Assembly (NCBI GenBank): GCA_021850605.1
Contig: JAJZLQ010000124.1
Span: 1 to 40,997, forward strand
Source: Actinomycetes bacterium
GTDB lineage: Bacteria; Actinomycetota; Acidimicrobiia; Acidimicrobiales; Acidimicrobiaceae
Reading direction: 5' to 3'
DNA length: 40,997 bases
This document shows positions 2,457 to 26,914 of this stretch, in pieces. Under the pieces are notes generated by a model that had not been told where the DNA came from, searched no databases, and worked only from the letters and a program-made list of their open reading frames with translations. Every line of letters begins with the position of its first letter. Within the stretch, counting starts at the first letter, position 1. The position numbers were made by a program, and so were the translations under genes.

Positions 2457-3419
2457 TTACCCCGCATGGACGCTTTCCAACCAGCGCTCGGTATCGAGTG
2501 CGGCCATGCAACCGGACCCGGCGGCCGTAATGGCCTGCCGATATATGTGGTCCTGGACGTCTCCGCAAGCGAAGATACCCTCGACGGAGGTATTGGTTCC
2601 ATCATGGGTCACGATGTACCTCGCGCCATCCATGTCGAGGATCCCCTCAAAGACCGAGGTGTTGGGTTCATGACCTATAGCCACGAACAGCCCGGTGACG
2701 GCGAGCTTGCTTCGCTCACCCGTAATGGTGTCCTCGAGTACGACACCTTCGAGTTGGTCACCACCGATGAGCTCAACAACGCGGGAATTCCAGGTGAAGG
2801 AGATCTTGGGATTCGCACGGGCTCTGTCCTGCATGATTTTCGAGGCGCGGAGTTCTGAACGTCGGTGGATGATGTGCACTTTCGACGCGAACTTGGTAAG
2901 GAAGGTCGCCTCCTCCATCGCCGAGTCGCCACCACCGACAACCGCGATTTCCTGGCCACGAAAGAAGAAGCCGTCGCAGGTCGCGCAAGTCGACACGCCG
3001 TGGCCGATCAACTCGATCTCTCGATCGACCCCGAGCATTATAGAGCGCGCGCCGGTAGCCACGATGATGGCGTCGGCAAGGTAGCTCGCATCCCCGTCAC
3101 CCTGGTCGGATGTCCAGATAGCGAACGGACGATTGGAGGCATCGATTCGCGTGACTTTGGCGGTGTGGAACTCTGCTCCGAACCGCTCCGCCTGGGAACG
3201 GAAGTTGCTCATCAACTCGGGGCCCTCGATGCCGTTGATGAAACCGGGGAAGTTTTCGATTTCGGTGGTCAGCATCAGCTGGCCGCCCGGCTGGTCGGAG
3301 GTGGAGGAGATCTCCCCCTCGATCACGATTGGGGCGAGATTTGCGCGGGCGGTATAGATTGCCGCCGTCAAACCTGCGGGCCCGGAGCCAATTATGGCTA
3401 CGTGCGTGTGCCTGGTCAC
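2457..3419 (-). CDS. trxB: Thioredoxin-disulfide reductase
   Basis: GSGPAGLTAAIYTARANL FAD motif, CATCDG redox motif, GGGDSAMEEA NAD(P) motif; GTG start (VTRHTHVAIIGSG) overlaps the stop of the upstream gene. Confidence 0.95.
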   Translation of the reverse strand: MTRHTHVAIIGSGPAGLTAAIYTARANLAPIVIEGEISSTSDQPGGQLMLTTEIENFPGFINGIEGPELMSNFRSQAERFGAEFHTAKVTRIDASNRPFAIWTSDQGDGDASYLADAIIVATGARSIMLGVDREIELIGHGVSTCATCDGFFFRGQEIAVVGGGDSAMEEATFLTKFASKVHIIHRRSELRASKIMQDRARANPKISFTWNSRVVELIGGDQLEGVVLEDTITGERSKLAVTGLFVAIGHEPNTSVFEGILDMDGARYIVTHDGTNTSVEGIFACGDVQDHIYRQAITAAGSGCMAALDTERWLESVHAG

Positions 3420-3757
3420 TAGTGCTCCTTGTTCTTGACCGACCTCTTCGACCAGAGAACCAAGCCAGTTATGGTCAAAATCGCTCCCAGGACTAGATAC
3501 GTGATCCAGACGTGGGAAGCGAAGGCGTAGACGGTGAGGAGCCTTACCACTGCAATGAGGAGGGCGATGCCGACCACGAGGGCTAGCAATCCACCGACTA
3601 GGCCATAAATCACCCAACGGGTGATCCGATACAGGGGAGAAATGCCCTTCTCCCTGAGCGCATCGGTCAGGTCCACCACGAGGTCGGCGGCCCGGTCGGC
3701 CCACGGCTCTCGCGTTGTCTCCGACCCCTTGCGTTCAAGTTCGTCCGGCATAGTCAC
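3419..3757 (-). CDS. Small membrane protein (holin-X-like superfamily possible)
   Basis: 112 aa with two hydrophobic segments (VIYGLVGGLLALVVGIALLIAVV; VWITYLVLGAILTITGLVLW); translationally coupled to trxB (TAGTG). Confidence 0.6.
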   Translation of the reverse strand: MTMPDELERKGSETTREPWADRAADLVVDLTDALREKGISPLYRITRWVIYGLVGGLLALVVGIALLIAVVRLLTVYAFASHVWITYLVLGAILTITGLVLWSKRSVKNKEH

Positions 3758-14442: not shown

Positions 14443-14729
14443 GGGGGATCGGCGAGGCGGCTAAATGGTGCCGAGCCGGCGCTGGCTGCGACCGAGCGAA
14501 TTTTCGCCCGCGTTGCGCCAAGTTATGGAGGGGACCGGTACGGCGTCGGCACCACCAAGGGGCACGGCGTTACCAGTCCTGTTTGCATGTCACGGCAAGG
14601 CCGGGTTCTTGCGCCGATTGTTTGGCGCGGGCGCGGTCTGACGGAGTTAGCAAGGCCTTTTGACCACCTCAGCCCGTAACGTGTCTGCGAATCCAGCACG
14701 ACCACCAGCCCAAGTGCGGTCACCGTTGA

Positions 14730-15145
14730 TCACACCGTGTCTCCCGCATTGGTGTTAAAGGTCCGCGTTTTAGTTCCTGCCGCAAGGAGCGCAACGAGGA
14801 ACGGGTGGGGCCTTCCAGGTTCACTTGAGATCTGGGGCACGAAGAGGGTAGCAACGAAGAAGGGATGCGACGGAAGTTCGAGGATGCGGGGCTCCCCGTC
14901 AGCGTCGGTCCCGCTGAGCGAGAGGCCAGCCTCGATGATGGTATCGAGAAACGCCGGGTTGAGGCCGAAGTTGCAGTAGTAGCACTCGCTTGCCGTCGCG
15001 GACCGATAGGCGGCCGCGGCGGCGGTGCCGTCGTTGATATGGACCGTCATGGTCCGGCCAGCCATGGAACAGGAAAGCGGCGTGATGAAGAGCACAGATG
15101 CGTACGCATCGTATTCAGCGTGCTGGGCATCTGCGAAGCCGGCCG
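14730..15145 (-). pseudogene. C-terminal fragment of a 'CTP synthase C-terminal region-related' glutamine-amidotransferase-like protein
   Basis: Open frame ...GFADAQHAEYDAYASVLFITPLSCSMAGR...ECYYCNFGLNPAFLDTIIEAGLSLSGTDADGEPRILELPSHPFFVATLFVPQISSEPGRPHPFLVALLAA; the N-terminal half is missing and replaced by MocR sequence. Confidence 0.65.
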
Positions 15146-16105
15146 AGGATCGGACTCGCCATGTCCAGTGTTGCCCGGGCCTGTACAAGATATGCCACGA
15201 TGGTGCGGTCCGCACGCACTCAGCCAATGCGCAATCCCCCAAAAGGCATTACTTACTGATCCGACCGAGATGACGGTGTCGCCCCGTTCGCAGCTCGCGA
15301 GGGGTGGGGGAAGGTCTGAGTTGTCAGGTCCGAGCTCGACGAACGTCCCGTCCACCACCAATCTCGATCTGCTGGATTCAGCCGCTTCAACGACGAAGGC
15401 CCGGCTTGCGGAGTCCAAGAGCCGCCCAGTCGGGTTTTGAAAATCAGTAATAAGGTAGGCCAGTCGCGGAAGTACTTGGCGAATGGATGTGCCCAAAGCT
15501 GTGACGGAGTCGTTGATTCCTACGGCGATCACTCGGGAGTGATTTCCAGTCAGCGCATCAGGAGCGCCGGGGTAAGTCGGAGATTCGATCAGGACCGGAT
15601 CGAGTGGCTCGGCTAATGCGCGTACGGTGAGGTCGATCGCCTGCTGCACGCCATTGGTGATTAAGGTCTGCTCCGGCGAAGCCGAAAGTCGTCTGCTGGC
15701 ATGCCGCTCAGCGACCGCCTCGCGGAGGACAGCCACACCTCGCGAGTCCGTACCCGTGGTCTGTCAGATACCTCGGCCGCAGAGCGCTTGCTGAAGCGAG
15801 GGCCACCGTGATCTTTTCGTCGCCGGGCGGTGCGGCAACGGCCAGATCAAGCCATTCCGATCCTTCGGGTGTCGCGGGTCCCCACGGTGCGCCGCGCCGC
15901 CCAAGTCGCAGGAAGAGTGAGCTCGTTGGGCCGGAAATACCCGCGTTGGCACCCCGGACTTCCAGCCAGCCGGGCCCTTCCATAACCTCGACGGGAGAGG
16001 CAATCCGGGTGCAACGTGTCCGCCATTCGGGCCCAGGGAATTGCCAAGAGTTGGCTCGCGCCGAGATTGCCCTAGCCTTGGAATCAAGACTGGGGATTGA
16101 CGTGA
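15140..16105 (-). pseudogene. Degenerate MocR/PdxR-type GntR-aminotransferase regulator
   Basis: Aminotransferase fold I signatures (TNGVQQAIDLTVRALAEPLDPVLIESPTYPGAPDAL; LAYLITDFQNPTGR; VVDGTFVELG) spread over several frames; frameshifts near 15760 and 15240; Lys of the SxSKxxWGG motif is Asn (15248-15250); in-frame TGA at 15220-15222 in restored GLRIG*VRA; degraded HTH remnant upstream. Confidence 0.75.
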
Positions 16106-16205
16106 CGGCATTCAGGACTCATCGACCAAGCGGTGAGCACGTACATGGTCCGTGCCCGCCCCGCCGGGGCACCGGCCAAAGCATGTCTCGGACCGGGCCC
16201 CCGCA

Positions 16206-17417
16206 ATGACGACCAAGGGAGAATACCGCTGGCAATTCGCGGCCCGCTTCCGCCGCCACGCCTACGGTTGGAAGTCCCAGCCCGCGGTGATGCGGGTTAA
16301 GGAGGCCGTCGGCGAGATAAGGACGGTAGCTCGCCGAGACCCGGTGCTCGGCGCGCAAGGCGCCGTGGCGTTTCTTGAGCGCGTATCGCCCGCCCTGGAG
16401 CTGGTCGACAGCTCCTCAGGCGCGATCGGCACTGCTGTGCGCAATGCGGTGCGCGATCTGGTTGCCATTATCGCTCGCGCGCCCGTCGATGACGCTACGC
16501 GTCAGGGTTGGCTCGATCGGCTGTGGGCGGCGGTTGAAGCCGACGAGATTCCTTACCTTGAAAGCCTGGGCGACTATTGGGGCGATCTCTGCGCCACCAA
16601 GGAGATCGCGTCCGCCTGGGCCGACCGAACCATTGCCGCCACGAGACTCGCACTCAGCCCCAACCGAAATGTACGGGGCTTCTACCAAGGCACCACGGTG
16701 TGCCTGAGCGCGCTGTATAGCGCTGAGCGCTACGAGGAGATCCTCGACGTCCTCAAAATCGACACGATATGGGCATACAAGCGCTGGGCGGTTTTGGCCT
16801 TGAGGGCCATGGGAAAGAGGGCTGAGGCGATCCGCTACGCGGAGGCTTGCCGGTCACCGTGGACTCCCGAGCGCGAGGTGGACGCGATTTGTGAGGAGAT
16901 TCTGCACTCTTCGGGGTTTGTCGAAGAGGCGTATCAGCGCTATGGCCTGCGGGCCAACCAGCGCAGCACCTACCTTTCCACCTATCGTACGATCGCGAAG
17001 AAATATCCGCATAAAGACTCGCGGGAGCTCTTGGCCGATCTGGTGGCCGCAACTCCGGGGGCCGAGCCGAAATGGTTCGCAGCGGCTAAGGAAGCGGGCC
17101 TCTACGACGAAGCCCTTGCTCTAGCGGCCTTGGGTCCGTGCGATCCCAGGACGCTCACCCGGGCCGCCCGGGACTTTGCTGATGCGCAGCCCGCTTTTGC
17201 GGTCGGCGCCGGCGTGCTCGCCTTGCGCTGGTTGGTCGCGGGCTACGGCTACGATGTCACCGGCACTGACGTGCGCGAGGCCTACGACAACACGGTGCGG
17301 GCGGCCGACATACTGGGCGAAGGAGCGGCAACCCGGGAGCAGATCCGCGGACTTATCGCCGAAGCCGATTCCAATGGCTTTGTGGCGAAGCTCTTGGGAG
17401 CCGAACTCGGGCTTTGA
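16206..17417 (+). CDS. Conserved hypothetical protein, predicted helical-repeat fold
   Basis: Intact 404-aa frame rich in Ala/Leu/Glu helices (e.g. SSGAIGTAVRNAVRDLVAIIARAPVDDATRQGWLDRLWAAVEADEIPYLESLGDYWGDLCATKEIASAWADR); coding-like codon usage. Confidence 0.7.
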   Translation: MTTKGEYRWQFAARFRRHAYGWKSQPAVMRVKEAVGEIRTVARRDPVLGAQGAVAFLERVSPALELVDSSSGAIGTAVRNAVRDLVAIIARAPVDDATRQGWLDRLWAAVEADEIPYLESLGDYWGDLCATKEIASAWADRTIAATRLALSPNRNVRGFYQGTTVCLSALYSAERYEEILDVLKIDTIWAYKRWAVLALRAMGKRAEAIRYAEACRSPWTPEREVDAICEEILHSSGFVEEAYQRYGLRANQRSTYLSTYRTIAKKYPHKDSRELLADLVAATPGAEPKWFAAAKEAGLYDEALALAALGPCDPRTLTRAARDFADAQPAFAVGAGVLALRWLVAGYGYDVTGTDVREAYDNTVRAADILGEGAATREQIRGLIAEADSNGFVAKLLGAELGL

Positions 17418-17513
17418 GCTACGGTTCGATCTTGACGGCGCGGCCGATTCTCGGACCGACATGGCGGCTGCGACCGCCGTCTTTCCCGTCCGAGCCGATC
17501 ACGCGGTCGGCCG

Positions 17514-18218
17514 TCAAATCCCTAACCGATCCCTCAGCTCGGACTGGTGAGCTCTGCTAACAGGAATTTCGTGCTTGCACGAACCCATCATGGCCAGCAT
17601 GAACTGATCCCCGCTCCGCCGGATGGTCTCGATGTGGTCCAGGTTGACAATGCTGCTTCTGTGCACCTTTAAGAACCTGGGATCGTGCAACCTGACCTGC
17701 AGTTGGGCGAGCGATAGGCCACAGAAGTGGTGCGTGCCTTCGACGCAGATCTCGGTGTAATGGCCATCTGCCAGAAGCAGCGAGACCTTGGAGATGTCCA
17801 CGAGTGCTGTCCTGCCGTTGTGGGACACCGGCAGCTTGATGAGGCTTCTTCTCCTCTCGCCCTCGACGGCTGGGGACGACGTGAGGTCGGTGATGTCGTA
17901 GAAGACAAGGCAGTAGCCGTCGGGCCCGTCGGCTCCCATCAGCCGTTGTACTCGCAGTTGTAGGACGGTGTCGGGAACGTTGATCAGCATCGAGGCGTAT
18001 TCCAGTGTTTCGCCACTCGCAGCTTGAGCGAGGAGCCAATCGATCTTTGCCCGTGATGATTCGTGATGGATCGAGTGGATGGTCTTACCGAGGGCGGCGT
18101 GGAGTTCCTCCTCGCCGAAGACGCCACAGGCGGACTGGGAAAAGCTGATCAGCCGATATTCGTGGTCGAGGACTGCCACGCCCAGAGGAAGCTTGTTCAG
18201 GATGTACTGAGGCTGCAT
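17514..18218 (-). CDS. PAS-LytTR transcriptional regulator (RcoM-like candidate CO sensor)
   Basis: N-terminal PAS (LPLGVAVLDHEYRLISFSQSACGVFGEEELHAALGKTIHSIHHESSRAKIDWLL...LVFYDITDLT) and C-terminal LytTR (DGHYTEICVEGTHHFCGLSLAQLQVRLHDPRFLKVHRSSIVNLDHIETIRR); RBS GGGAGGAACTG before ATG at 18218; divergent from the CODH operon. Confidence 0.85.
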   Translation of the reverse strand: MQPQYILNKLPLGVAVLDHEYRLISFSQSACGVFGEEELHAALGKTIHSIHHESSRAKIDWLLAQAASGETLEYASMLINVPDTVLQLRVQRLMGADGPDGYCLVFYDITDLTSSPAVEGERRRSLIKLPVSHNGRTALVDISKVSLLLADGHYTEICVEGTHHFCGLSLAQLQVRLHDPRFLKVHRSSIVNLDHIETIRRSGDQFMLAMMGSCKHEIPVSRAHQSELRDRLGI

Positions 18219-18239
18219 CAGTTCCTCCCGCCCGCATCG

Positions 18240-18289
18240 CCGCTCGCGTGACGGATTGCCCCGCTCGCGAACGCATTCCGCCACTCGTG
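18240..18289. promoter_or_regulatory. Triplet of 9-bp direct repeats, candidate LytTR/RcoM-type operator for the coo operon
   Basis: CCGCTCGCG (18240-18248), CCGCTCGCG (18261-18269), CCACTCGTG (18281-18289); start-to-start spacing 21 and 20 bp. Confidence 0.55.
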
Positions 18290-18381
18290 CGCAGCTCTCG
18301 TTGCCTGGCAGGCCGTGTTGTTACGATTCACAAACATTAGCACCGGGCATCCGGCGTGCTCGGCGTGTGGAGGGGAGGGGC

Positions 18382-18945
18382 ATGCAGAAGGCCATATTCA
18401 CCTTGATGGAGAGGTGCGTTGCGTGCAAGAGCTGTGAGATAGCTTGTGCCGTTGCCCACTCGCAATCCGGAATCCTGGCCACGGCCCAGTTCGAGAAGCC
18501 CCTTCCGCGCTCTCGGGTCAGGATTACCTCGGCCGGCGCCTACTCGTTCGCTTCTCGGTGCGTCCATTGCGAAGACGCGGCCTGCATAGCCGCGTGCCCA
18601 ACCGGGGCAATGCATCGTGAAGCCAAGACGGGCGTGGTCGCCGTCGACCAGGACCGTTGCATCGGATGTTGGATGTGTGTTGTCACCTGTCCATTCGGGG
18701 CGGTGACAGCTGATCCGGGAACCGGCAAGGCTCTCAAGTGTGACCTTTGCGCTGTACGTACCGCCAAGGGGCTCGGCCCCGCATGCGTTGATGCCTGTCC
18801 GACCGGGGCGATGGTCTATGCGACTCCGGACGAGCTGGCCGGGATGCGGCGCTCCGCGACAGCTATGGCATCGGTCGGAGCCGTCGAGGAAATCGAGGAG
18901 AGCGTGGCGCTCTGGAGGAACCTAAAGGGAGGACGGGCAATATGA
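18382..18945 (+). CDS. cooF: CODH-associated 4Fe-4S ferredoxin-like electron carrier (CooF-type)
   Basis: CVACKSCEIAC, CVHCEDAACIAACPTGAM, CIGCWMCVVTCPFGAV, CDLCAVRTAKGLGPACVDACPTGAM; overlaps cooS by 4 nt (ATGA). Confidence 0.88.
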   Translation: MQKAIFTLMERCVACKSCEIACAVAHSQSGILATAQFEKPLPRSRVRITSAGAYSFASRCVHCEDAACIAACPTGAMHREAKTGVVAVDQDRCIGCWMCVVTCPFGAVTADPGTGKALKCDLCAVRTAKGLGPACVDACPTGAMVYATPDELAGMRRSATAMASVGAVEEIEESVALWRNLKGGRAI

Positions 18946-20843
18946 CACTTTTGAACCAGCCGCCGGTCGAAGCGGCGCTACTGCAGATTGCCCGGAAGAA
19001 GGGCATGGACACCGGAAGGGACCGACTTGCCGAAATGTCGCCCCAGTGCGGCTTCGGTGAACTCGGTACCTGCTGCCGCACGTGCTACATGGGCCCGTGC
19101 CGGATCGATCCATTTGGGGATGGCCCAAAGACAGGGATCTGCGGAATCACACCCGACGCCATGGTGGCCAGGAACCTGCTGCGGGAGACGGTCGGCGGGG
19201 CCGCGTCACATGTGGGTCATGCACGGCATGTTCTCCTGACCCTGAGGGATGTACTCGACGGCAAGGCGCCATACGAGATAAAGGGCGAGGCAAAGGTTCT
19301 CTCCCTGGCCAAGGTTTTCGGCGTTCCCACGGATGGCCGCGAGGTCAAGGACGTCTGCCGCGATCTGGTCGACATCGCCCTGGAGGACTTTGGCCGCCAG
19401 GACGAGCTTCCCAACAACTGGGTGTCCAAGCGGGCTCCCAAGGGCGAGCAGGAGATGTGGGCGAATCTGGGTTTGATGTATTCAAACCCCCACAACGAGA
19501 TAGAGACGGCCATGCACGCCACCTCGATGGGGAACGACGCGGATCCGGCATCCCTCATGATGCGCGTGCTGAAGATGAGCCTGATCGACGGGTGGACGGG
19601 GCTGGCCCTTTGTGTCGACCTGCAGGACATGCTCTTCGGCGTTCCCGAAGTCTCGGTGACCCAAGCCGCGGTTGGTGTACTGGACGAGAAAAGTGTCAAC
19701 GTTGCCGCGCACGGCCACAACCCGGTTCTCTCGGAGAAGATTCTCGAGTGGGCATTCAAGCTCGAGGACGAGGCGATCGCCGCCGGGGCAGACCGGATCA
19801 ACGTGGTGGGAGTCTGCTGCACGGGGAATGAACTCTCGATGCGCCATGGCGTCAAGCTTGCGGCGCACAACTCCCAGAGTGAGCTGATTCTCATGACGGG
19901 CGCGGTTGATGCGATGGTCGTCGACATTCAGTGCATATGGCCTCAGCTTGCCCAAGTGGCCAAGTGCTTCGACACCGCCTTTATCACTACCGACCCCATG
20001 GTCCGCATTCCTGACGCGCGACACATGCCCTTCGAGCCCGAGCACGCCGACGAAACCGCGCGCGAAATCGTGCGGGCGGCGATTGCCGCCTTCGGAGCGC
20101 GAAAAGGGAAGCCGGTGGACATACCGCAGATTTCCACCTCCGCCATGGCGGGTTTCTCAGTGGAGGCGATTGTCGGTGTACTTGCCAAGTTAAATGCCGA
20201 GGATCCCATCAAGCCCGTCATCGACAACGTGGCCAATGGCAACATCCATGGTTTTGCGGGGATCGTCGGCTGCTCATCCATCAGGTTCCGCGACGGGGCG
20301 ATGACCGAGGAGCTGGTAAAGAATCTCATTGCCCAGGATGTCCTGGTTGTGACCACCGGCTGCACCGCACATATATGTGCCCAGGCCGGCCTCCTCACGC
20401 CCGAGGCGACGGAGCGCTATGCCGGCCCTGGCCTGAAGGCCGTTCTGAGTGTGCTGGGGCGGGCCGCGGGCCTCGGCGGCGCGCTCCCACCCGTTTGGCA
20501 CATGGGCGCATGTGTAGACAACTCGCGGATCGTGGACCTTCTGGCGGCGGTGGCCGACCGCCTGGGAGTCAAGATAGGGCAGCTTCCCGCGGTGGGTTCA
20601 GCGCCTGAGCTCGTGCAGGAGAAAGCCGTGTCCATAGGTGGCTCCTTCCTGGCGCTGGGCGTGTCAACCCACATCGCCCCGGCTCCGCGGATCCTTGGGG
20701 GACCGATGGTCACCAAGCTCCTGAGCGAGGACTTGGCCGATGTGACAGGCGCGGTGGTCCACGTCGAGCTCGAAGCCAAGCGGGCGGCCGACTGGATGGT
20801 CGAACACATCTCCCAAAAGCGCGCCGCACTAGGGCTCTCCTGA
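18942..20843 (+). CDS. cooS: Anaerobic Ni-Fe-S carbon monoxide dehydrogenase catalytic subunit
   Basis: CGFGELGTCCRTCYMGPCRIDP...GICG (D/B-cluster Cys set), AAHGHNPVLSE, GVCCTGNE, VDIQCIWP, GIVGCSS, TTGCTAHICAQAG, MGACVDNSR (C-cluster ligand motifs) and QEKAVSIG. Confidence 0.97.
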   Translation: MTLLNQPPVEAALLQIARKKGMDTGRDRLAEMSPQCGFGELGTCCRTCYMGPCRIDPFGDGPKTGICGITPDAMVARNLLRETVGGAASHVGHARHVLLTLRDVLDGKAPYEIKGEAKVLSLAKVFGVPTDGREVKDVCRDLVDIALEDFGRQDELPNNWVSKRAPKGEQEMWANLGLMYSNPHNEIETAMHATSMGNDADPASLMMRVLKMSLIDGWTGLALCVDLQDMLFGVPEVSVTQAAVGVLDEKSVNVAAHGHNPVLSEKILEWAFKLEDEAIAAGADRINVVGVCCTGNELSMRHGVKLAAHNSQSELILMTGAVDAMVVDIQCIWPQLAQVAKCFDTAFITTDPMVRIPDARHMPFEPEHADETAREIVRAAIAAFGARKGKPVDIPQISTSAMAGFSVEAIVGVLAKLNAEDPIKPVIDNVANGNIHGFAGIVGCSSIRFRDGAMTEELVKNLIAQDVLVVTTGCTAHICAQAGLLTPEATERYAGPGLKAVLSVLGRAAGLGGALPPVWHMGACVDNSRIVDLLAAVADRLGVKIGQLPAVGSAPELVQEKAVSIGGSFLALGVSTHIAPAPRILGGPMVTKLLSEDLADVTGAVVHVELEAKRAADWMVEHISQKRAALGLS

Positions 20844-20853
20844 GCGAACCAAG

Positions 20854-22098
20854 ATGAGCGACCTGGTGATTGTTGGGAACGGCCCGGCGGCGGTGGCGGC
20901 TATCGAACGCTTCAGATCCCTTGACAGCCGCTCAAGGGTCACCGTTGTCTCGCAGGAGGAGGTGCCCTTTTACTCGCCCTGCCCGTTGGCGGAGTATGTG
21001 GAGGGGAGCGTGCCTCGGGAGCGTCTCTTTTTGAGGCCGGCTTCCTTTTACGACGACAACGGCGTCGAGTTCCTTGGCGGCGCGACCGCCGTCGAGCTGC
21101 ACCGCGGAGTTGTCGTGATCAGCAAGGCGGGCGAACTCCACAGCCTCGCGTGGCACAAACTGCTGGTGGCTACGGGCGCGGTGGCGGCCAGGCCCCCCGT
21201 AGACGGGATCGAGGGTACGGCCGGAGTCTTCGCGCTCAAGACGCTTTCCGATGCGGAGGCGATCATGGCCCAGGCTCGCCGTGCACGGCGGGCTGTGGTG
21301 ATCGGTTCCGGTTTCATAGGCCTGGAGGCGGCTCAGGCGCTCAGGCGGTTGGGGCTGGACGTGACCGTGCTGGAGGCACTGGACCAGGTGCTGCCGCAGA
21401 TGCTTGATGCCGATCTGGCTGAAATCGTTCGATCTCGGCTCGAGGAAAATGGCGTCAAGGTCTTGTGTGCGGCCCTTGCTCGCGCGATCGAGTCAGAAAG
21501 AGGGGCGGTGCGCGGCGTCCGGCTCGACGCTGGGGTGCTTCCCGCCGATCTCGTGATCATTGCCACCGGCGTCCGCCCCGACCTCGGGTGGCTCGCAGGC
21601 TCTGGCGTCGCAACGGATGTGGGTGTTCTCGTCGATGCCTCGATGGCCACCTCCGTGCCCGGGATCTGGGCAGCGGGGGATGTAGCCCAGGCGCCGGCAT
21701 GGGACGGCCGGCAGCGCTTGATTCCTACCTGGCCGAACGCCGTGTCAATGGGCAGGATCGCCGGAGGATCGATGGCGGGCGGGGAATCCAGACACAGCGG
21801 TACCGACGTCGTCAATGTGGTCCGGGTGTTTGGCATGGCAGTCGCCTCCTTCGGCGAGCGGAGCAACGACGAGCCGCACGACTTCGCCACCGGCGGTGCC
21901 CGGCGAAGGGTGCGAATCCGCGAGGGAGTCATCTCCAACGGCCAGTTCATCGGTGACATCTCTGGAAGCGGAGCACTCCTCGAAATGATGCGCAAAGGGG
22001 TGGACGTGCGCCGGCTGGGCGGCGTCATCGCCCGACCCGGAGTCGGACCCGCCTGGTCCTTGCCTCGTCCACCCAAGCCGGGGCGCCATGCAGCCTGA
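20854..22098 (+). CDS. CODH-linked FAD-dependent NAD(P) oxidoreductase (FNOR type)
   Basis: DLVIVGNGPAAVAAIERF FAD motif, VVIGSGFIGLEAAQALRRLGLDVTVLE NAD(P) motif, VDASMATSVPGIWAAGDVA; inside the coo operon; YSPCPLAEY cysteine at the position of redox Cys in NADH oxidase/CoADR-like enzymes. Confidence 0.9.
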   Translation: MSDLVIVGNGPAAVAAIERFRSLDSRSRVTVVSQEEVPFYSPCPLAEYVEGSVPRERLFLRPASFYDDNGVEFLGGATAVELHRGVVVISKAGELHSLAWHKLLVATGAVAARPPVDGIEGTAGVFALKTLSDAEAIMAQARRARRAVVIGSGFIGLEAAQALRRLGLDVTVLEALDQVLPQMLDADLAEIVRSRLEENGVKVLCAALARAIESERGAVRGVRLDAGVLPADLVIIATGVRPDLGWLAGSGVATDVGVLVDASMATSVPGIWAAGDVAQAPAWDGRQRLIPTWPNAVSMGRIAGGSMAGGESRHSGTDVVNVVRVFGMAVASFGERSNDEPHDFATGGARRRVRIREGVISNGQFIGDISGSGALLEMMRKGVDVRRLGGVIARPGVGPAWSLPRPPKPGRHAA

Positions 22099-22891
22099 GC
22101 CCGCAGCACGTCCGCTGCGCATCGCCGTAGCGGGAAAGGGTGGGGTCGGAAAGACGACACTGACCGCCCTGCTGGCCTCCCACTTCCTTGCCCGGGGAAG
22201 GGGTGTGCTGGCAATTGACGCGGATCCGTCGCCATGCCTTGGTCCTGCGCTCGGTTTCACCGCCGACGAGCTGGCCGCGGCCGTCCCGCTGTCCGCGATG
22301 GAGGGAGTTCTGGACGAGCGGTCGGGGGGCCGGACGGGAGTTTTCCGTATGAACCCCACCGTGGCCGACCTTCCCGAGAGGCTCACCGTGTCCCGGGGCG
22401 CCTTGCGCCTTTTACTGCTCGGGTCGGTCGAGCATGGGGGCGGGGGATGCTTCTGCCCGGCCAGCTCGGTTTTGCGGGAACTGGTTCGCCACTTGATGCT
22501 CAAAGAGGGCGAGGTTGTGCTGCTCGACTTGTACGCCGGTGTCGAACACCTGGGACGCGCGACGGCCGACTCCGTGGATGCCATGCTGGTGGTGGCCGGA
22601 CCAAACCCGAGATCGATTGCCACGGCGCATCAGGTGCGGCGCATGGCGCAGGAGGTGGGTATAGAGCGTCTCCTCCTGGTGGGCAATGGCATCACGGGGG
22701 ATGAGGATGCGGCGTACCTTGTGGATCGTGCCGGGGATTTCGAGATCGCAGGCATGATCCGGGCTTCTGTTGAAGCACTTCCGGCCGAGCGTGCCGGCAG
22801 AACCCTCTATAGCGTTGACCGCCGCGCGGCCACCGACGTAGCGGAGATAGCACTGGCGGTCGAGAGATCCGCGACCTCGGTGAGGGTCTGA
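22088..22891 (+). CDS. cooC: CooC-type nickel-insertion ATPase
   Basis: Deviant Walker A AVAGKGGVGKTTLTALLA, AIDADPSPCLGPALG, CxC motif in GGGCFCPASSVLRELVRHL; overlaps the upstream gene by 11 nt. Confidence 0.92.
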   Translation: MQPEPAARPLRIAVAGKGGVGKTTLTALLASHFLARGRGVLAIDADPSPCLGPALGFTADELAAAVPLSAMEGVLDERSGGRTGVFRMNPTVADLPERLTVSRGALRLLLLGSVEHGGGGCFCPASSVLRELVRHLMLKEGEVVLLDLYAGVEHLGRATADSVDAMLVVAGPNPRSIATAHQVRRMAQEVGIERLLLVGNGITGDEDAAYLVDRAGDFEIAGMIRASVEALPAERAGRTLYSVDRRAATDVAEIALAVERSATSVRV

Positions 22892-23253
22892 CCTTCGCAG
22901 ATCAATGGGAGCGCACTCGGCGGCCAGGCGCCCGGTTTTGGCGTGAGACGCCGATCGAGGGGAAGCGCAGGGGCTCGGGAGACCGGCTGAAACTCGTCGG
23001 AGCCCTAGCGGCCTGTGGGTGAGCGCTGCTCGCGGGTGTGCAATACCTGCCAACCACGCCGCAATTACCGAAGGCCGACAAGGCTCGAGGTGCCCATGTC
23101 TTGACCACCCCGGGCTCGAGGGGCTCGGGCGCATCCTTGTGAGCGGGCACTCGGGGTCCGTGCATCCCGCACCGCCATGCACGCGGAGCAATTAGGATAG
23201 TTCCGCTAATCGCGGGTGATTCCCACCCGCCCTGTTCCTCGCATTGTGGCGGG

Positions 23254-25048: not shown

Positions 25049-26914
25049 GTGGCAAGGCAGATTCAGAGGCGCGATGCCAGTTCGGCGCAGAACGCCCTCG
25101 AGCGGGCTATTCCTCACAACTTGGAGGCCGAGGAGTCGCTTCTGGGGGCGATGCTCCTGTCAAGGGATGCGATCGCCGACGCGCTCGAGTTCTGCCAGGC
25201 CGCCGACTTTTACAAGCCATCACATTCGGCGGTCTTCGAGGCACTGACAGAACTCCATTCCCGGGGCGACTCGGTCGACCCGGTCAGCGTCTCCGAGGAG
25301 CTTCGCAGGCGCGACACCTACGATCTGGTGGGCGGCACGGCCGCGCTGCTGGAGCTGCAGGCCAACACACCCGCGGTGGCGAGCGCCGCGCGCTACGCGC
25401 GGATCGTGGAGGAGTACTCGCTGCTGCGCAAGCTGATCAAGGTCGCCGGCGAGATCTCCGAGCTTGCCTACTCCGTCCCGGAGAACGTGGGGGCCGTACT
25501 CGATCTGGCGGAATCCCTCATCTTCGAAGTTTCCCAGCGCAAGTCGACCGATTCGCTGGTTTCCATCAAGGAAGTCCTGCTTCGCACTTTGGACGACCTG
25601 CAGGCCCAATATGAGAACCCCGACAACGTCACCGGCATCAGTACCGGTTATTTCGAGCTCGATGAGATCCTCTCGGGCATGCAGCGCTCGGCGTTGATTA
25701 TCGTTGGTGCCCGCCCGGGAATGGGCAAGACCTCTTTCGCACTCGGGATAGCCACCCACGTGGCAAGCCGGTCCAACCTGCCCGTGCTGGTTTTCTCGCT
25801 GGAGATGAGCCATTTGGAGTTGACCCAGCGCATACTCGCTTCCGAGGCTCGCGTCGACTCGCGCAAGATGCGTACCGGCAACCTCTCCGAGGAGGATTGG
25901 AGCCGCATATCCCGCGCTCTGGGTAACTTGGCGGAGGCGCCGATCTACATCGACGACAATGCCCACGTCACCATTCTCGACATTCGCGCCAAGGCGCGCA
26001 GGCTGAAGGCGGCAACGGGCGGCCTAGGCCTGGTCATCGTCGATTACCTTCAGCTGATGTCGGGGGGCTACCGTTCCGAGTCGAGGCAGATGGAGGTCTC
26101 GGAGATATCGCGAGGCCTTAAGCTGCTGGCGCGCGAACTCGACGTGCCTGTGCTGGCTCTTTCCCAGCTCTCGCGAAACCTGGAGATGCGCTCCGACAAG
26201 CGTCCGGCACTGGCCGACCTGCGTGAATCGGGCTGCCTCGCCGGCTCCTCGCAGATCACCGTGGACGCCGATGGCAACACCGTAAGCATTGATGCCCTGT
26301 GGCGCTTCTTCGGCCATCCCGGTATGGAGCTTGTGGCCATGGACACCGAGGGCCGGATGGTTCCCGGGCGTGTTCGCGACGTCCGCTTTTCCGGCTCCAA
26401 GCCTCTCTACCGACTGCGCCTCGAGTCGGGTCTGAGTGTGGATGCCACCCCCAATCATCGCTTCTACACCCGGCGTGGATGGAAGATGCTCTGGCAGCTG
26501 AACACCGCTGATGAGCTGGCGGTTCATACGCCCGCCAGAGTGGGCGGCCGTGCCGCGTTTGCGGCCGCAGCTTCTGTCGCGCCTGCCTGTGGTGGCAGCC
26601 CCGATGAGCGCGCCGGCTTCGAGGGAGTGGTGTCGGCGGAGTTTATCGGCTGGGGACCGACCTTCGATATTACGGTGGAAGAGCACCAGAGCTTTGTCGC
26701 CAACGGTATCGTCGTGCACAACAGCCTCGAGCAGGATGCGGATGTGGTGATGTTCATCTACCGCGACGAGGCCTACAACGCCGAGACGATGGACAAAGGG
26801 ATCGCGGAGATCCTGGTTTCCAAGCATCGCAACGGACCCACGGGCGTAGCCCGCCTCTCCTTCCTGGAGACCTATACCAAGTTCGCCAATATGGCACGCT
26901 CCCACGGGGGCTGA
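25049..26914 (+). CDS. dnaB: Replicative DNA helicase DnaB containing an in-frame intein
   Basis: PHNLEAEESLLGAMLL, GARPGMGKTSFALGIA Walker A, VIVDYLQLMSG, ALSQLSRNLEMRSDKRPALADLRESG^...^SLEQDADVVMFIYRDEAY. Confidence 0.96.
   Translation: MARQIQRRDASSAQNALERAIPHNLEAEESLLGAMLLSRDAIADALEFCQAADFYKPSHSAVFEALTELHSRGDSVDPVSVSEELRRRDTYDLVGGTAALLELQANTPAVASAARYARIVEEYSLLRKLIKVAGEISELAYSVPENVGAVLDLAESLIFEVSQRKSTDSLVSIKEVLLRTLDDLQAQYENPDNVTGISTGYFELDEILSGMQRSALIIVGARPGMGKTSFALGIATHVASRSNLPVLVFSLEMSHLELTQRILASEARVDSRKMRTGNLSEEDWSRISRALGNLAEAPIYIDDNAHVTILDIRAKARRLKAATGGLGLVIVDYLQLMSGGYRSESRQMEVSEISRGLKLLARELDVPVLALSQLSRNLEMRSDKRPALADLRESGCLAGSSQITVDADGNTVSIDALWRFFGHPGMELVAMDTEGRMVPGRVRDVRFSGSKPLYRLRLESGLSVDATPNHRFYTRRGWKMLWQLNTADELAVHTPARVGGRAAFAAAASVAPACGGSPDERAGFEGVVSAEFIGWGPTFDITVEEHQSFVANGIVVHNSLEQDADVVMFIYRDEAYNAETMDKGIAEILVSKHRNGPTGVARLSFLETYTKFANMARSHGG
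26234..26722 (+). mobile_element. DnaB mini-intein (163 aa, no homing endonuclease)
   Basis: Starts CLAGSSQITVD (block A Cys1), block B GLSVDATPNHRFYTRRGWK, blocks F/G TFDITVEEHQSFVANGIVVHN followed by Ser+1; flanked by exact DnaB extein RESG/SLEQDAD. Confidence 0.93.

Follow-up and report, generated by a model that had tools for sequence, protein, structure and literature searches.

A laterally spread Ni,Fe-CO dehydrogenase operon with a predicted route to NAD(P)+ in the Acidimicrobiaceae

Ni-dependent CO dehydrogenases (Ni-CODHs) are usually regarded as enzymes of anaerobes. In the anaerobic deltaproteobacterium Geobacter sulfurreducens, the genes GSU2099-2095 encode RcoM, CooS, CooC, CooF, and an FAD/NAD(P) oxidoreductase (FNOR), and CO-dependent NADP+ reduction was observed in extract (PMC4703632). 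A CooF-CooS-FNOR set is likewise found in the CODH-IV operon of Carboxydothermus hydrogenoformans (CHY0735-0738), whose enzyme ChCODH4 (structure 6elq) has been described as CO scavenging and O2 resistant (Domnik 2017, as given in papers citing it). AorABC of Aromatoleum aromaticum (8c0z) has a tungsten aldehyde oxidoreductase as its catalytic subunit, and electrons run along a chain of Fe4S4 clusters to FAD and NAD+ (PMC10413684). RcoM regulators ligate heme by His and Met, with CO replacing the Met (PMC9670170), and the published RcoM1 operator consists of three TTCNNGCA repeats with 12- to 13-bp spacers, a period of 20 to 21 bp (PMC11347149).

Here, we describe a coo locus in a 2.56-Mb Acidimicrobiaceae genome (154 contigs, 91% complete), within a 40,997-nucleotide stretch referred to as the window. 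Likened by described gene content, it has the same five components as the Geobacter module, with RcoM in front and without a hydrogenase or acetyl-CoA synthase (ACS) partner; the order in Geobacter is instead CooS-CooC-CooF-FNOR. The locus probably encodes a CO:NAD(P)+ oxidoreductase module like that of Geobacter, gained by horizontal transfer and induced by CO. Since operons of this kind have been reported from Geobacter before, what is new here is the hosts and the span of the clade across phyla; the mechanism is not.

The coo operon and its CooS

The operon consists of the following genes:

18382-18945, + strand: cooF, matched by PF13247 and other models; 16 cysteines with CooF/AorA-like spacing; matches AorA (8c0z_C)
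18942-20843, + strand: cooS, predicted monofunctional Ni,Fe-CO dehydrogenase; above the TIGR01702 cut-off, with complete cluster ligands; best solved relative 6elq (ChCODH4)
20854-22098, + strand: FNOR, FAD/NAD(P) oxidoreductase; PF07992, with FAD and NAD Rossmann motifs; best solved relative AorC (8c0z_E)
22088-22891, + strand: cooC, Ni-insertion ATPase; match to CooC 3kje, with Walker A and CFC motifs

We verified the coordinates of these genes, which an initial annotation had called overlapping or adjacent. By open reading frame, cooF and cooS overlap by 4 nt, a gap of 10 nt separates cooS from FNOR, and FNOR and cooC overlap by 11 nt; cooF-cooS-FNOR-cooC was thus confirmed as a single tight plus-strand operon (18382-22891). 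The CooF-like ferredoxin proposed there does have its cysteines arranged as four [4Fe-4S] motifs, and the CooC, proposed on a Walker A and a CxC motif, carries KGGVGKTT and CFC and matches the solved CooC 3kje (E 2e-34). It also holds that no hydrogenase or ACS genes adjoin the operon. Among the neighbors listed, aconitase and PutA are present, while the supposed thioredoxin system comes down to a thioredoxin-reductase-like open reading frame (2457-3704), judged by eye. The initial annotation overlooked three things: an RcoM-type regulator stands beside the operon, the locus belongs to an island, and the operon type has a precedent in Geobacter. Elsewhere in the window, DnaB (25049-26914) contains an in-frame intein (PF14890) at residues ~445-558, within its C-terminal domain.

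We confirmed the assignment of the window CooS as a predicted monofunctional Ni,Fe-CODH. It scores 620.6 bits against TIGR01702, for which the cut-off is 478. In an alignment that included ChCODH4, all 12 cluster ligands of ChCODH2, as well as H93 and K563, are kept in the window CooS and 13 close relatives. With ChCODH2 as the reference, the conserved residues are C39 and C47 of the D cluster, C48, C51, C56, and C70 of the B cluster, and H261, C295, C333, C446, C476, and C526 of the C cluster, cluster roles that we take to be established for ChCODH2. The full set of metal-ligand motifs originally claimed is therefore present. The gene is under strong purifying selection: comparison with two sister genomes gave dN/dS values of ~0.035 and 0.028.

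At one gas-tunnel position, the clade differs from both ChCODH2 and ChCODH4. Residue 559 is Leu in all 14 close clade members, Ala in ChCODH2, and Tyr in ChCODH4, whereas V610 is unchanged. ChCODH2 was made less oxygen sensitive by A559W and A559H, and Leu is not among the changes reported in the accessible part of that source (PMC12338426).

Electron partners and a probable route to NAD(P)+

CO-derived electrons might leave CooS by several routes, and we searched the genome for the partners that each would use. These genome-wide statements come from single-family searches of a 154-contig, 91%-complete bin; because of this incompleteness, the missing hydrogenase and ACS are not proven absent from the organism. 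No match to CdhC/ACS (PF03598) was obtained in the 91%-complete genome, and control genomes gave matches. A Ni-ligating group 4, or energy-converting, [NiFe] hydrogenase was not found in the same genome. The form I CoxL motif AYxCSFR is absent from the four CoxL-family genes, three of which have xRGAGR and one neither motif; on these motifs none counts as form I, and a Mo-CODH as the actual CO oxidizer was rejected.

The two remaining hydrogenase-like loci bear on a second possibility, that CooF hands electrons to a hydrogenase encoded away from coo, which would yield H2. Both a [NiFe] hydrogenase (contig C129) and a Hyf/Nuo-like membrane complex (contig C10; L048 4374-8202) exist, but neither is near coo. 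The former is a large/small subunit pair with a maturation protease, matching uptake-type family models, and the large subunit of the latter is without both Ni CxxC motifs, so that it appears to be a hydrogenase-related complex, not a hydrogenase. We consider this coupling very improbable.

The homologies of CooF and FNOR suggest a different destination. The nearest solved relative of FNOR is AorC (8c0z_E), and CooF has AorA (8c0z_C) among its nearest solved relatives. A second resemblance of FNOR is to PadH, a subunit of NADH-dependent phenylglyoxylate dehydrogenase: it scores 251 bits against the PadH family model, below that model's cut-off. Because ACS, a Ni-ligating energy-converting hydrogenase, and form I CoxL were not found in the 91%-complete genome, and because CooF and FNOR match AorA and AorC, electrons most likely pass from CooS to CooF, FNOR, and NAD(P)+. 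This is the route that the initial annotation had proposed, and it is supported by the AorA/AorC homology and by the failure to find other partners in the 91%-complete genome.

A Glu after the second strand of an NAD-binding fold generally favors NAD+ over NADP+. FNOR has a Glu at this position (VTVLEALDQ), which suggests a preference for NAD+. One feature counts against this best explanation: FNOR is the least conserved partner, at 46 to 53% identity versus ~80% for CooS, which is unusual for a tightly coupled complex. Cys43 of FNOR lies in an invariant YSPCPLAEYVE/YSPCPLAEYI motif, near the position of the redox Cys of NADH oxidases and coenzyme A (CoA)-disulfide reductases; AorC is without it.

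FNOR falls within the NADH oxidase/CoA-disulfide reductase superfamily, and its invariant Cys43 would suit a role in CO detoxification or oxygen-stress defense. The enzyme would scavenge traces of CO, or FNOR would use electrons from CO to reduce peroxide or oxygen, a role that has been put forward for the ChCODH4 operon. That the best solved relative of CooS is ChCODH4, the enzyme described as scavenging and O2 resistant in papers citing the original work, fits such a role, as does the presence of the operon in obligately aerobic Azotobacter. However, the resemblance to ChCODH4 is not specific, because CooS is hardly closer to ChCODH4 (48.1% identity) than to ChCODH2 (47.6%). The rubrerythrin-like gene of the CODH-IV operon has no counterpart in this operon, and a dedicated connection to NAD(P) would be superfluous for an enzyme that only scavenges. 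We regard this role as unlikely, though it is the most serious competitor to a CO:NAD(P)+ oxidoreductase.

CooS chemistry is reversible, so the operon might instead reduce CO2 to CO with reduced cofactors, for biosynthesis or electron disposal. Such a direction has been suggested for a CODH beside FNOR in Clostridium autoethanogenum (PMC6344411). But no CdhC/ACS that would use the CO was found in the 91%-complete genome, and a CO-sensing regulator suits CO use better. NAD(P)H alone is, moreover, too weak a reductant for conversion of CO2 to CO, and we find reverse operation scarcely plausible.

RcoM-type regulator and candidate operator

Two features upstream of cooF suggest control by CO:

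17514-18218, - strand: putative RcoM-type PAS-LytTR regulator (PF04397 LytTR, PF08448 PAS_4), divergent from cooF
18264-18291, + strand: candidate RcoM operator, half-sites CTCGCGAA and CTCGTGCG, 20 bp apart

The regulator frame is open from a GTG at 18284, with the likely start at ATG 18218. The protein aligns with a Paraburkholderia RcoM (L075), at ~30% identity; this is also a PAS-LytTR protein, but its neighbors are aerobic Mo-CODH (cox) genes. The His of the reference sequence HPEKSRDK and the Met that follows it 30 residues later fall in columns without variation among the regulators compared, consistent with the heme ligation described for RcoM. We infer that the divergent protein is RcoM-type and CO sensing. 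Such a regulator was found in the window and at 8 related loci: it adjoins the operon in every sufficiently long Acidimicrobiaceae locus of the window CooS type and in the Rhodocyclales locus L013. None was found beside cooF in the Azotobacter, Azomonas, and UBA5811 loci.

The repeats follow the same distribution. Ahead of cooF, the period of the best repeat pair is exactly 20 bp in 9/9 loci with RcoM and 0/6 without, a comparison that is not an independent test because the half-site consensus was derived from these very sequences. As a control, we scored the published TTCNNGCA triplet consensus against 200 shuffles per locus. The real score was matched by 0/200 shuffles for L004 and L005, 15 to 23/200 for L007, L010, and L013, and 51/200 for L015. 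For the window, 108/200 shuffles were as good, and about half were likewise for L002 and L003. The candidate operator is thus supported for the family; for the window, where about half of the shuffles score as well, it is proposed by its position and period only.

Combining these parts, CO would bind the heme of the RcoM-type regulator, which would then activate the divergent cooF-cooS-FNOR-cooC operon via repeats in the shared intergenic region. CooC would load nickel, and CooS would oxidize CO to CO2, with electrons running from its C cluster through B and D into the four clusters that CooF carries. If CooF and FNOR form a complex with CooS, electrons would continue to the FAD of FNOR and reduce NAD+ (or NADP+). 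The NAD(P)H may feed the respiratory chain and, with the CO2, may supply the Calvin cycle.

Genomic island, lateral spread, and host

The coo set lies in a region with the following features:

14443-23184: island carrying the coo set, between panB and rpsF, delimited by the homology break against the coo-less sister genome G010
15047-15736, - strand: remnant of a MocR/YczR-type regulator, covering residues 144-313 of a 458-aa NCBIfam model
16152-17417, + strand: 421-aa gene of unknown function, outside the coo operon; no match in Pfam or NCBIfam; 97% identical in the sister locus L002

Homology to G010 (L050), whose DnaB is 92% identical to that of the window, extends up to 14442, where panB ends, and is found again from 23185, ahead of rpsF; between these points, G010 has a different 1 kb. 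Genes panB and rpsF are also adjacent in five further coo-less congeners. Thus, the coo set lies in an ~8.7-kb island missing from sister genomes at this locus. Contamination of the bin was rejected: the same island is present in G004 (L002), and the operon is beside rpsF in L003 too. A search for repeats at the island ends gave nothing useful. In a related Acidimicrobiaceae bin, a serine recombinase domain (PF00239; L004 6525-7013) lies directly downstream of cooC and is a possible agent of mobility.

The window CooS type was found in 7 of 43 Acidimicrobiaceae genomes, in four of eight genera; the near relatives are bins labeled "Actinomycetes bacterium" or "Acidimicrobiaceae bacterium." Two more of the 43 genomes have a different CooS, 44% identical. 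Among 396 genomes sampled from the class, those of other families had no close CooS type. Other Acidimicrobiia (L024, L078, and L058-L072) have two different CooS types, 43 to 45% and 38 to 40% identical to that of the window.

Outside the family, the closest CooS proteins (78 to 82% identical) are from Azotobacter beijerinckii, A. chroococcum, and A. vinelandii, Azomonas macrocytogenes and A. agilis, UBA5811, and a Rhodocyclales bin. DnaB identity drops to 56 to 58% already within the window's genus. Because the CooS proteins are so much more alike than their hosts, this CooS type must have moved between phyla. Acidimicrobiaceae, Rhodocyclales, Azotobacter, and Azomonas all retain the gene order cooF-cooS-FNOR-cooC, so these relatives do carry the oxidoreductase in the operon. 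The Azotobacter and Azomonas loci (L006, L008, L009, L011, and L012), with CooS 79 to 81% identical, differ in having neither an adjoining RcoM nor period-20 repeats. The A. vinelandii locus also encodes a [NiFe] hydrogenase large subunit and a maturation protease (L009 16256-17862), ~5 kb away from the coo operon. The CooS tree supports a Pseudomonadaceae group (98/100) and an Acidimicrobiaceae group (80/94), and a long stem separates them from ChCODH2 and ChCODH4; with outgroups on long branches, it does not tell donor from recipient. Plasmid carriage was rejected, as none of 72,556 plasmids had a close CooS of this type.

The host had been taken for an ordinary heterotroph, a view that its gene content contradicts. 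We read from the sequence a form I RuBisCO cluster, cbbL-cbbS-cbbX, with a LysR-type regulator, and the genome also encodes two heme-copper oxidases in addition to the [NiFe] hydrogenase away from coo. A RuBisCO match was present in 7/7 family genomes with the window CooS type versus 20/36 others, a co-occurrence that is only suggestive, the genomes being related. We rejected nitrogenase protection as a theme common to Azotobacter and Acidimicrobiaceae, as no CooS-bearing family genome had nifH above the cut-off. A strong partial nifH match in the cooS-less genome G025 (L080, contig C38 21267-21761; 294 bits over 165 positions) suggests nitrogenase in Acidimicrobiaceae. We found no description of a CODH/FNOR module in the window's lineage in the literature covered, which was incomplete.

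A module type known from Geobacter is unexpected in actinobacteria that use oxygen and fix CO2, as is a very similar enzyme in the aerobe Azotobacter. We offer, as a speculative and rather unlikely extension, that the CooS clade found both in Acidimicrobiaceae that respire oxygen and in the obligately aerobic Azotobacter and Azomonas works in, or survives, air, and that in Acidimicrobiaceae it gives CO2 and NAD(P)H for Calvin cycle growth on CO. If so, Ni-dependent CO uptake would reach hosts that respire oxygen through one laterally exchanged clade, and Azotobacter would be a cultivable source for studying natural oxygen tolerance of Ni-CODH. CO would then have a direct link both to NAD(P)H and to the Calvin cycle, as its oxidation in the host would provide both CO2 and NAD(P)H.
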